This document shows, piece by piece, positions 45,207 to 51,385 of a DNA stretch of 64,000 bases (its first letter is position 1; every line of letters begins with the position of its first letter). Under the pieces are notes generated by a model. That model saw only the letters and a program-made list of their open reading frames with translations. It ran no database searches and was not told where the DNA came from. The translations under genes were made by a program, and so were the position numbers. This DNA comes from Oscillospiraceae bacterium CM (GTDB lineage Bacteria; Bacillota; Clostridia; Oscillospirales; Oscillospiraceae). Location of the stretch: the NCBI GenBank assembly GCA_022870705.1, contig CP072107.1:62001-126000 (forward strand), written 5' to 3'.

Positions 45207-45245
45207 TTAACAAATTGTTCCCTTGCGGTTAACAAATTGTTCACC
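45207..45245 (+). promoter_or_regulatory. Pho-box-like direct repeats upstream of the two-component operon
   Basis: Four hexamers at an exact 11-bp period: TTAACA (45207), TTCCCT (45218), TTAACA (45229) and TTCACC (45240), each separated by 5 bp. The Bacillus PhoP consensus is TT(A/C/T)ACA repeated with about 5-bp spacing. Within this, GGTTAACAAATTGTTC is repeated perfectly at 45205 and 45227. The array probably binds the response regulator encoded just downstream (autoregulation). Confidence 0.6.
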
Positions 45246-45318
45246 ATTGTCTCCAGGCGCGTATTATGATAATCTCGGCAATAATGCCGCGAATTGTAGG
45301 GTTAGAGGGGTGAGCTCA

Positions 45319-46008
45319 TTGCCAAAGAAAGCGCTTGTCATTGAGGACGATATTCATATAGCCGAACTGTTGCGACTGTATCTTGAAAAGGACGGATTTG
45401 ACGTCGCCATTGCCGACAACGGCGGTAAAGGCGTCAGCGAATTTGAACGGATCAAACCCGATATTGTTCTGCTGGACATCATGCTGCCCGTTTTGGACGG
45501 CTGGGGCGTCTGCCGTGAAATCAGAAGCACATCAAAAACGCCGATTATCATGCTGACGGCCAAGGGGGAGACATTTGACAAAATTACGGGCCTTGAAATG
45601 GGTGCCGACGACTACGTCGTCAAACCATTTGAGGTCAAAGAACTTTTAGCGCGCGTTCATGCCGTGATGCGCCGGACCGAGACAAAAGAGGAGACCGCCG
45701 CCAAAAAGCTTGTTTTTGATAAGCTGATTATTGATATGGATTCCTTTGAGCTCATTGTCGACGGGAAGAAAGTAGACGCCCCACCAAAGGAAATGGAGCT
45801 TTTATACCATCTGGCCATGACGCCGAACAGAGTTTATACGCGCAACCAGCTGCTCGACGAAGTGTGGGGCTTTGACTATTTCGGCGACTCGCGGACGGTT
45901 GATGTCCATATTAAGCGGTTGCGCGAAAAGCTTGAGAACGTCAGCGAGAAATGGTCACTCAAGACTGTTTGGGGCGTCGGTTATAAATTTGAGTTGAGCG
46001 GCGCATGA
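45319..46008 (+). CDS. OmpR/PhoP-family response regulator
   Basis: About 229 residues. Receiver domain LVIEDDIHIAELLRLYLEKDGF with the acidic pair, phospho-acceptor Asp in IVLLDIMLPVLDGWG (about residue 53), the Thr in IIMLTAKGE and the Lys in DDYVVKPFEVKELLARV. The C-terminal winged helix includes YHLAMTPNRVYTRNQLLDEVWGFDYFGDSRTVDVHIKRLREKL. The start is set at TTG 45319 because GAGGGG lies 8 bases upstream; GTG 45310 is the alternative. It overlaps the kinase gene by 4 bp. The Pho-box-like array upstream suggests a PhoP-type phosphate regulator, but no pst/phoU genes are nearby to confirm it. Confidence 0.93.
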   Translation: MPKKALVIEDDIHIAELLRLYLEKDGFDVAIADNGGKGVSEFERIKPDIVLLDIMLPVLDGWGVCREIRSTSKTPIIMLTAKGETFDKITGLEMGADDYVVKPFEVKELLARVHAVMRRTETKEETAAKKLVFDKLIIDMDSFELIVDGKKVDAPPKEMELLYHLAMTPNRVYTRNQLLDEVWGFDYFGDSRTVDVHIKRLREKLENVSEKWSLKTVWGVGYKFELSGA

Positions 46009-47447
46009 AAAGCCTATATTTTCGGAATTTTATGATGACGGCCAGCATCGTATTGCTGAGCTTTCTCTTCCTCGGCGCCATTTTTTCGGCCTGGAGCTAC
46101 AGGCTCGTCGTCGCGGAAACGAAAGAGACAATGTCAAAAACGGCCGGTGAAGTTGTCCGTTACATTTCAGCGCTCAACAATGGGTATGAGCTCGGCGGCT
46201 TTGAAATGCGTATGGCGCTGTCCGTCATGTCGAAGACGACTGGTTTTGATATCCTGGTTGCCGACAGAACCGGCACCGTCATCTCCTGCTCGGACAAGGA
46301 TGGTACCTGCCCGCACATCGGCAGAAACGTGCCGCACGGCATTCTTTCACAGATCACATCCGACGCCGGGTACAGCGGAACGTCCGACCTTGGCGGTGTC
46401 TATGACGACAGCCGATACGTCGTTGGTGTGCCGCTCACGAGCGGCAATATCATCGTTGGGTATGTGCTGCTCTCAAGCGAATCGACCGAGATGATCCATG
46501 TCTGGCGGCAGTTCTCCGGTGTTTTTCTGATGATCTCTCTTTTTGTGCTGGTGCTTACTTTTTTCATCACGCTCATCACGTCGAAGAAACAGGCCGAGCC
46601 GCTTAATGAAATGGCCCTGGCGGCCCGGCGCTTTGCCCGGGGCGATTTCACGGCGCGCGTGGCTGAGACATGCCGGGATGATGAGCTCGGCCAGCTGACG
46701 GACGCCTTCAATAAGATGGCTGATTCGCTTGAGCGGTCGGAAAGCCTGCGCCGTGAATTCGTCGCCAACGTCTCCCATGAGCTCAAGACACCGATGACGG
46801 TCATCTCCGGTTTTTCAGATGGTATCCTTGACGGCACGATCCCGCAGGAAAACTCACGCGAGTATCTGGAGGTCATATCTGCTGAGACGAAGCGCCTGTC
46901 AAGACTCGTGCGCAACATGCTCGACATGTCCCGCATCCAGTCGACAAGCGCCGAGATTCTGCGAAGCGGCAGGTTTGATATCTCGGAAATCATCCGGTTA
47001 TCCCTTTTAAGCCTTGGCAGCAAGATTGACGCGAAAGGGCTGGACGTTGATGCCGCGCTGCCGGAGGAGCCGATGACGGCCCGCGGCGATCAGGATGCGA
47101 TGACGCAGGTTGTCTACAACCTGATCGACAATGCCGTCAAATTTGCCGAGCAAGGCTCGACCCTGCGCGTCAGTCTATGGAAGCAGGGACAGCGGGCCTT
47201 CGTATCTATTGAAAACACTGGGGAGACGATACCGCCGGAGGAGATGCGGCTCATTTTCGACAGATTCCATAAAACAGACCGGTCGCGGAGCGAAAACCGC
47301 GACAGCACGGGGCTCGGCCTTTATATTGTCAAAACAATTCTTGACAATCACAAAGAGGATATTTTCGTCACGAGCGCCGATGGTGTGACGAAATTCACGT
47401 TTACGCTGACATTGGATTCAAACGAGCGGCCGCCCGGCGCGCGGTGA
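46005..47447 (+). CDS. Membrane sensor histidine kinase (PhoR/ResE-like)
   Basis: 480 residues. TM1 is about 10-32, followed by an extracytoplasmic sensor loop of about 130 residues with CSDKDGTCPHIGRNVP, a cysteine-containing segment. TM2 (about 168-190) leads to a HAMP domain (about 191-243). The HisKA domain has the phospho-accepting His in FVANVSHELKTPMTVISGF (about residue 258), and HATPase_c has N-box VVYNLIDNAVKFAEQG (about 371) and G-boxes STGLGLYIVKTIL (about 435). It is translationally coupled to the response regulator (ATGA overlap). A second Pho-box-like array starts 6 bp after its stop. Confidence 0.94.
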   Translation: MKSLYFRNFMMTASIVLLSFLFLGAIFSAWSYRLVVAETKETMSKTAGEVVRYISALNNGYELGGFEMRMALSVMSKTTGFDILVADRTGTVISCSDKDGTCPHIGRNVPHGILSQITSDAGYSGTSDLGGVYDDSRYVVGVPLTSGNIIVGYVLLSSESTEMIHVWRQFSGVFLMISLFVLVLTFFITLITSKKQAEPLNEMALAARRFARGDFTARVAETCRDDELGQLTDAFNKMADSLERSESLRREFVANVSHELKTPMTVISGFSDGILDGTIPQENSREYLEVISAETKRLSRLVRNMLDMSRIQSTSAEILRSGRFDISEIIRLSLLSLGSKIDAKGLDVDAALPEEPMTARGDQDAMTQVVYNLIDNAVKFAEQGSTLRVSLWKQGQRAFVSIENTGETIPPEEMRLIFDRFHKTDRSRSENRDSTGLGLYIVKTILDNHKEDIFVTSADGVTKFTFTLTLDSNERPPGAR

Positions 47448-47452
47448 CAAAT

Positions 47453-47506
47453 TAACAAATTATTCAAAGTCTATTCACAAAAATGATGGATTTAAGGCAT
47501 ATGATA
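47453..47506 (+). promoter_or_regulatory. Second Pho-box-like array with a -10 element, no gene downstream
   Basis: Three hexamers at 11-bp period: TTAACA (47453), TTCAAA (47464) and TTCACA (47475). They are followed 20 bp later by TATGAT (47501-47506), the layout of a PhoP-activated promoter in which the array replaces the -35. It fires rightward into the gap before the convergent rib operon. Confidence 0.5.
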
Positions 47507-47511
47507 AAGCT

Positions 47512-47666
47512 ATCAAAACGGAAATCGCCTGCCATTCGGTACCGCTTGACGCCTGCTTCTAAACATACACACGTACCATCCTCCCCCGGCAGGTAACGTC
47601 CGATTTTGTTTATCCCGTAAAAGCCCTCTCTTTTCGAAAAGCCCCCGACACTGTCGGGGGCTTTTC
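47512..47666 (+). ncRNA. Candidate small RNA from the orphan Pho-box promoter
   Basis: If the promoter at 47453-47506 is active, a transcript of about 155 nt would run to the hairpin at 47636-47666. No convincing protein is encoded: the only frame opening near the start has no ribosome site and runs on into sequence antisense to ribH. The existence of the RNA is an inference. Alternatively this is just the remnant of a promoter whose target gene was replaced by the rib operon. Confidence 0.3.
47636..47666. terminator. Strong hairpin, bidirectional terminator after ribH
   Basis: GAAAAGCCCCCGACA pairs with TGTCGGGGGCTTTTC with almost no loop, ending in CTTTTC on both strands. It lies 15 bp past the ribH stop on the minus strand and would also stop rightward transcripts. 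Confidence 0.8.
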
Positions 47667-47680
47667 GTACGGCGTGTGCG

Positions 47681-51227: not shown

Positions 51228-51261
51228 CAATAAACAAACGGCATTAACATGCACAAACATT

Positions 51262-51367
51262 CTTCTTTCATCCAGACTATACTGTCGGCTTCGGAGTTAC
51301 ACCGAATCTGCGCCATAGCGCTCGTGGGCTTTACCACCGGTAGGGAATCACACCCTGCCCTGAAGAT
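51262..51367 (-). promoter_or_regulatory. FMN riboswitch (RFN element)
   Basis: On the minus strand the conserved RFN blocks appear in order: CTTCAGGGCAGGGTG, then GATTCCCTACCGGTGGTA followed by AAGCCCACGAGC, then TGGTGTAACTCCGAAGCC-type sequence (here CGGTGTAACTCCGAAGCCGAC) and the closing AGTCTGGATG.AAGAAG. Binding FMN would favour termination of the rib operon. Confidence 0.93.
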
Positions 51368-51385
51368 ACGATATTAATTTTTTTT

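Follow-up and report, generated by a model that had tools for sequence, protein, structure and literature searches.

A probable small RNA gene of a two-component system with a proposed role in HtrA-type envelope stress in Sporobacter

Small RNAs (sRNAs) of the envelope-stress response are well described in Proteobacteria, CpxQ being one of them, the RsaE family is present in Rfam, and phosphate promoters of the PhoP/PhoB type are built of phased hexamers ahead of a -10 element. CpxQ is described as an sRNA from the 3'UTR of cpxP, which is the most strongly induced transcript of the Cpx system (PMC4817254, accessible parts). In Bacillota, RoxS/RsaE is an sRNA with several C-rich regions able to pair with Shine-Dalgarno sequences, and it is activated by ResDE/SrrAB (PMC4409812, accessible parts). 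According to the accessible text of a further report, CutR acts on htrA genes and has the motif TAWATAAA (PMC12802291). In the open-licence literature, as far as its accessible text goes, no report was found of any two-component system from Clostridia or Oscillospiraceae that is linked to HtrA and includes an sRNA.

The window considered here is the whole analysed stretch of 64,000 nucleotides. Its positions 47452-47667 are probably the sRNA gene of the adjacent two-component system, which would be of the HtrA-type envelope/secretion-stress kind. In the mechanism proposed, the phosphorylated response regulator would bind three phased hexamers of conserved geometry and activate a promoter without a -35 element and with TATGAT 20 nt downstream, and it would also act at its own promoter, where a related box is present. 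The transcript would be non-coding and about 155 nt long. It would combine a covarying stem, which carries a C-rich segment, with a linker rich in C and U and a terminator, and its C/U-rich segments would most likely pair with Shine-Dalgarno regions of mRNAs, whose translation would thus be repressed. The signal would be envelope or secretion stress, and the regulon would have a protease arm (HtrA) and an RNA arm; it is read in this way because htrA lies in most of the examined slots behind the kinase and because a similar CU-rich core occurs in the 3'UTRs of box-driven htrA genes. In Sporobacter the htrA frame is absent from the slot and the promoter would drive the RNA alone, the direction of this change being presumed. 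Promoter geometry, regulator box, RNA structure, CU-rich segments and the link to htrA are each supported by sequence comparison.

The two-component system consists of a response regulator of the OmpR/PhoB family (45319..46008, + strand, start codon placed by inference, assigned with NCBIfam models) and a sensor histidine kinase with HAMP, HisKA and HATPase_c domains (46005..47447, + strand, domain models), the stop codon of which is the TGA at 47445-47447 on the same strand. The best NCBIfam models of the regulator are MtrA, YycF and PhoB, every score being below the cut-off (226.6 bits with the PhoB model, cut-off 296.2), and the kinase scores 178.9 bits with the PhoR model (TIGR02966, cut-off 334.2) and is likewise below the cut-off of the PnpS model. 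Neither protein of the pair thus reaches the cut-offs of the PhoB and PhoR models, which PhoP/PhoR of Bacillota may fail too. Of 200 genomes of the family, 186 contain a match to the kinase at E <= 1e-95, and all six genomes of the genus have a kinase ortholog. Two cysteines lie in the presumed extracytoplasmic domain of the kinase; among 50 orthologs, 36 retain C95 and 31 retain C102. Two conserved sensor cysteines are also reported for the secretion-stress kinase CutS (PMC12802291, accessible parts), and by analogy C95 and C102 hint at a disulfide or folding signal.

Ahead of the regulator gene stands a proposed autoregulatory promoter (45229..45270, + strand, from sequence and comparison) that reads TTAACA-N5-TTCACC followed after 19 nt by TATGAT. 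An additional TTAACA-like repeat begins at 45207, and the related hexamers upstream of the gene, which had been overlooked in the earlier note, extend over 45207-45245. Of the 46 loci with enough sequence, 38 have box and -10 element ahead of the regulator gene, compared with one of 414 control windows, the form searched being TTHACA-N5-TTCACM with at most two mismatches and a -10 element at 19-21 nt; this two-repeat form was defined after the result of a stricter three-repeat search (8/46 upstream of the regulator) had been viewed. The box at the regulator gene would tie the element to the regulator of its own system, as we infer from sequence.

Behind the kinase gene, three phased hexamers of the TTHACA type form a putative response-regulator site (47452..47479, + strand; sequence, pattern scan and comparison): TTAACA at 47452-47457, TTCAAA at 47463-47468 and TTCACA at 47474-47479, with a period of 11 bp. 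The -10 element TATGAT (47500..47505, + strand) lies 20 nt past the third hexamer, a spacing that is conserved, since a -10-like hexamer occurs 19 or 20 nt past the third hexamer in 43 of the 47 kinase loci having a box at up to four mismatches. The pattern TTHACA-N5-TTHAH-N6-TTHACA has a single exact match in the genome of 2,185,546 bases, namely this site, and four sites at one mismatch, one of which is the promoter of the regulator of the same system. With three hexamers, at most four mismatches in total and a -10 element at 19-21 nt, box and -10 element were recorded behind the kinase in 45 of 110 kinase loci and in none of 1011 reverse-strand windows of kinase loci. The hexamers and the TATGAT 20 bp further on, as the earlier note had described them, are thus real, only that the first hexamer starts at 47452 and not at 47453. 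A scan with the sigma-70 consensus did not return this promoter because it has no -35 element, as is expected of an activated promoter. Phased hexamers together with TATACT were also seen ahead of a frame resembling an ABC transporter ATPase (named by eye) at L069 (G000:C1:57330-57357, - strand; G000 is the present genome), a possible further member of the regulon. A similar box could also be read by another OmpR-family regulator.

The slot behind the kinase was compared in 110 kinase loci (30 + 20 + 60), a subset of all the kinase places found. Pfam assigned six of seven chosen slot proteins to HtrA (Trypsin_2 + PDZ) and one had no match; a profile built from the six HtrA proteins then marked htrA in the remaining loci. 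In this way htrA was found in the slot at 65 of the 110 loci, 24 with the box and 41 without it, so that a regulator-type box stands at the htrA gene in 24/65 htrA slots of relatives. A further 20 slots were RNA-like, all of them with the box by construction since the class was assigned from sequence and fold with the box included, and the other 25 held something else or were too short, one of them having a box. At htrA-like genes elsewhere in the genomes the box was absent from all 16 scanned loci, nine of which were from Sporobacter. In the kinase tree of 50 loci, 26 rows form a group (support 100/99) of 14 RNA loci, 12 others and no htrA, and one further RNA-type locus (G008) is placed with htrA loci. 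Eight changes of the RNA label are required on the tree, compared with a mean of 13.1 for shuffled labels. On this evidence the history of the RNA slot may have involved repeated loss or more than one origin. In the genus of L040 (G006) and L232 (G134) the slot RNA was observed to carry a pair of strong hairpins and, before the terminator, a stretch rich in U and C; these two RNAs have neither the C-rich motifs described below nor a match in Rfam, and they are possibly a separate RNA family.

The small RNA gene proper is placed at 47510..47667 (+ strand, about 155 nt, start estimated) from the fold, the covariance model and the comparison. The RNA at 47510-47672 folds with -54.2 kcal/mol (z = -5.25), none of 200 shuffles being as low, and this low predicted energy is owed largely to the terminator stem. 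The outer stem is formed by a 5' arm with AAAACGG and CCTGCC (47515..47533, + strand) and a 3' arm with GGCAGG and CCGATTTT (47588..47607, + strand), both arms resting on consensus structure, arm swap and covariation. Between them lies C-rich segment 1, ACCATCCTCCCCC (47575..47587, + strand), a putative antisense element taken from the alignment and unpaired in the consensus, which reads ACCTTCCTCCCC in G003 and G005. C/U-rich segment 2, CCCTCTCTTTT (47624..47634, + strand), was likewise taken from the alignment, is kin to the core of the htrA 3'UTRs and directly precedes the terminator stem-loop, an inverted repeat at 47635..47667 (+ strand; sequence, fold and conservation). This stem-loop was absent from the output of a terminator consensus scan because its T-run is short and lies within the stem. 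The predicted RNA has no ATG on inspection and no + strand frame of 60 amino acids inside it, which agrees with the absence of a credible gene stated earlier, and comparison of sequences also backs the proposal that the promoter drives a small RNA up to the hairpin. At the gathering score of Rfam there was no match for the RNA of the window and 18 related loci; at a loose threshold seven weak matches appeared, each below the gathering score and reaching into the terminator stem, and they were not accepted. The neighbouring rib operon is convergent; 13 bases separate the end of ribH, the final gene of the operon, from the terminator of the sRNA, and an FMN riboswitch lies upstream of the operon at 51256-51371 on the - strand (RF00050, 114.7 bits). 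The symmetric terminator may also serve the convergent rib operon.

Conservation was followed in six genomes, the present one included, of a genus taken as Sporobacter. All six have the box with its -10 element, an RNA-like interval and a terminator 3' of the kinase. The earlier note would have counted a lack of conservation of the interval against the RNA, and this objection does not hold: similarity of the interval DNA is clear in three of the five other genomes (G001, G003 and G005), and G002 and G004, where the DNA match is not significant, are alike in layout, their RNAs being recognised through place, stem, C/U-rich stretches and terminator. The exact CCCTCTCT core is absent from the G004 RNA. 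The four similar RNAs have a mean column identity of 76%; terminator, linker and C-rich stretch are nearly invariant among them, the linker reading CTCCCTCTCTTTTCG in three RNAs and GCCCTCTCTTTTCG in G000, and the outer stem varies in sequence with its pairing kept. The structure that RNAalifold derives from these four sequences contains an inner hairpin in addition to the outer stem and the terminator, and both C/U-rich segments are unpaired in it.

Covariation was counted on the structure taken from the same alignment of four RNAs. Paired cells amounted to 94.6% compared with 88.0% in shuffles, pairs with changes on both sides to 6 compared with 3.1 (2/500 shuffles as high), and the covariation score was 0.242 against 0.119, with 0/500 shuffles as high and slid versions at 0.083 or below; further pair types (11 compared with 9.5, 127/500 shuffles as high) were the one of five covariation measures at the level of the shuffles. 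MAFFT misaligned the stem when eight RNAs were aligned, and that alignment was excluded from the pair counts. Because of this misalignment of the distant RNAs an arm-swap test was used, in which the best-pairing 3' arm is sought for each 5' arm. In the six Sporobacter RNAs it gave p = 0.0014 (about 1/720, the smallest attainable value) with the own arm best in five of six, and in eight RNAs p = 6e-5 with the own arm best in six of eight. When the set was enlarged to 9, 11 or 16 RNAs, none of the permutations sampled did as well, the own arm being best in only 6/9, 6/11 and 7/16 rows respectively. Judged from these comparisons, the outer stem is held by compensatory changes.

C-rich 5-mers numbered 90 in the 20 slot RNAs, compared with 34.6 +/- 6.3 in shuffles (maximum 57), and 42 in 13 other RNAs, compared with 10.9 +/- 3.9 (maximum 23). 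The C-rich motifs, which were picked after the sequences had been viewed, are present in 18/20 slot RNAs and 12/13 of the others, the RNAs without them being those of G006, G134 and G158. Both segments favour starts when 100 start regions, picked for Shine-Dalgarno strength, are set against 200 coding stretches of this genome. At the start regions segment 2 reaches -9.8 kcal/mol and beats all 20 shuffles (best mean -9.1), and segment 1 reaches -11.1 kcal/mol and is no better than its shuffles (-10.8, best shuffle -11.7). Targets were also sought in four genomes by the complements of the segments; the few near-matches were mostly off start codons and unshared, and no target is claimed. A near complement of segment 1, GGGGAGGAAGATA, stands at L323 (G000:C1:1420647-1420659, - strand) ahead of the start of a gene that, judged by eye, resembles an ammonium transporter gene, and this site is a target candidate only. 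The lack of convincing mRNA targets in this four-genome search would agree with an RNA that acts on a protein, for example as a sponge for a C/U-binding regulator to which the segments are presented on the stem, and so would the recurrence of similar C/U-rich elements in otherwise dissimilar RNAs. This explanation is nevertheless given a small probability, as no candidate protein is at hand and pairing of C-rich regions with Shine-Dalgarno sequences is a known mode in Bacillota (RoxS/RsaE, PMC4409812, accessible parts); the preferred reading remains an RNA that would pair with mRNAs.

Copies away from the kinase were searched with a covariance model, R1, built from the four Sporobacter RNAs; its first positions are the final two bases of the -10 element, so the box is excluded from it. 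Among the 200 genomes of the family 83 gave matches that reached E <= 0.1, in many cases through the terminator only. The opposite strand of the window itself scores E = 1.4e-8, which shows how far R1 scores depend on the terminator. Outside the genus, R1 matches best at the kinase slot of G130 (E = 1.5e-9), and the second-best match, in G106, has no box. On the slot loci R1 found G002, G113 and G026 at E = 3e-7 to 1e-5 (G002 at 3.3e-7) and some others weakly or partly, with the terminator end only at the G004 slot; the genome-wide run gave no match in G004. Box and -10 element (at most four mismatches, 19-21 nt) accompany 14 of the 57 examined matches outside the genus (8/18 + 6/39) and are missing from 43, in a set that leaves out L292 and L293 of the own genus, the terminator-only L383, the terminator-only matches without a locus and one opposite-strand match at the G168 slot. 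Random windows had the box in 59 of 4000 cases, true kinase boxes included. Thirteen of the 14 box-bearing matches are not at the kinase slot, and 11 of these 13 RNAs are on a different contig from the kinase or more than 100 kb distant, the position of the kinase not being given for those of G099 and G125. The RNAs of G024, G027 and G208 are near-identical, and in G024, G027 and G181 the kinase slot holds htrA without a box. Seven off-slot RNAs have varied neighbours, among which no phosphate gene was recognised by eye.

The last observation bears on the name of Pho-box promoter given earlier: that it is an activated promoter of the response-regulator type is backed by the comparison, and its attribution to phosphate, together with that of a phosphate-responsive RNA, is not. 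It is improbable that the system is the PhoPR of Sporobacter and the RNA a phosphate-starvation sRNA. The hexamers in 11-bp phase do resemble the PhoP box, and the regulator does match PhoB, YycF and MtrA and the kinase PnpS and PhoR, each below its cut-off, but no box with -10 element (at most four mismatches) is present in 19 kb around pstB-phoU or in 17 kb around pstSCA, no two-component genes were recognised by eye in either region, and the slot is filled by htrA in the majority of relatives' loci counted above. In this genome phoU lies 3' of pstB at 1.022 Mb, and pstS is at 1,528,786-1,531,543 with pstC-like and pstA-like neighbours, PstS and PhoU being assigned by Pfam and the other genes of these regions by eye. 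A pst gene may be present in some of the 24 slots that have neither htrA nor RNA nor box. Phosphate as the main reading was set aside since the box is absent at pst/phoU and htrA is in the slot. The idea in the earlier note that the promoter was stranded when the rib operon replaced a pst-type target fares no better: to the right of the RNA, G000 has ribH and G003 another gene on the reverse strand, and box and RNA stay with the kinase.

A response to envelope or secretion stress is the preferred reading, and the 3'UTRs of htrA bear on it. They were inspected because covariance-model matches in G082 and G070 fell just behind htrA. A CU-rich core (CTCTCTT, CCTCTCT, CTCTCTA or CCCTCTC, picked after the sequences had been viewed) was searched within 100 nt past the htrA stop and found in 17/23 genes with a box compared with 1/39 without (Fisher p = 2e-9, a value which, like those of the other motif tests, ignores relatedness). 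This set comprises 62 of the 65 htrA loci, G095 and G180 being out as the sequence ended and G036 as it was not parsed. The 17 core-bearing genes are spread over 11 genera, and in most of them the core stands shortly 5' of a terminator-like stem (by eye), as it does in the Sporobacter RNA. Least probable of all is that the RNA is an inert remnant of a lost htrA (leader plus terminator) kept only as an inter-operon terminator: htrA fills the slot in most examined loci and the best-conserved parts are the terminator and the linker before it, but compensatory changes maintain the stem, the C-rich segment is nearly identical in four species, and box-driven relatives of the RNA exist off the kinase slot. 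With the locus read as an sRNA gene of a stress system, there is about an even chance that one Oscillospiraceae regulator governs a two-armed envelope-stress response, in which protease and RNA can be separated from one another and the RNA module takes the form of an htrA 3'UTR, a stand-alone gene behind the kinase (Sporobacter) or a gene elsewhere with its own box. If this is true, a 3'UTR sRNA has been caught at successive steps on the way to an independent gene, and comparison of the three arrangements would allow the 3'UTR origin of an sRNA to be traced across genera. It would also be, to our knowledge, the first secretion-stress sRNA family in Gram-positive bacteria. From the box a regulon can be predicted, and the RNA could serve as a reporter.

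Compared with the known systems, the locus shares with PhoP/PhoB-type promoters the phased hexamers before a -10 element, and differs from them in that no such box lies near pst or phoU in this genome. With CutRS/CssRS it has in common two-component control of htrA in Gram-positives, here suggested by the box; the CutR motif TAWATAAA is different, and an sRNA is not mentioned for CutRS/CssRS in the accessible parts of the source (PMC12802291). The best reading, by analogy, is that the RNA would work in a way that resembles CpxQ and RoxS. Like RoxS/RsaE (PMC4409812, accessible parts), it would be a two-component-activated sRNA with conserved C-rich regions, here predicted to be single-stranded; unlike it, it has another activator and box, is located downstream of its own kinase gene or looks like an htrA 3'UTR, and has no match in Rfam. 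Like CpxQ (PMC4817254, accessible parts), it would belong to an envelope-stress two-component system, with the element here in the 3'UTR of a box-driven htrA. It differs in phylum, in having htrA and not cpxP as host mRNA, in occurring in free-standing forms and in being known from sequence alone. The trait that marks CpxQ, an sRNA-like sequence in the 3'UTR of a regulated mRNA, is present in the relatives at the level of sequence.
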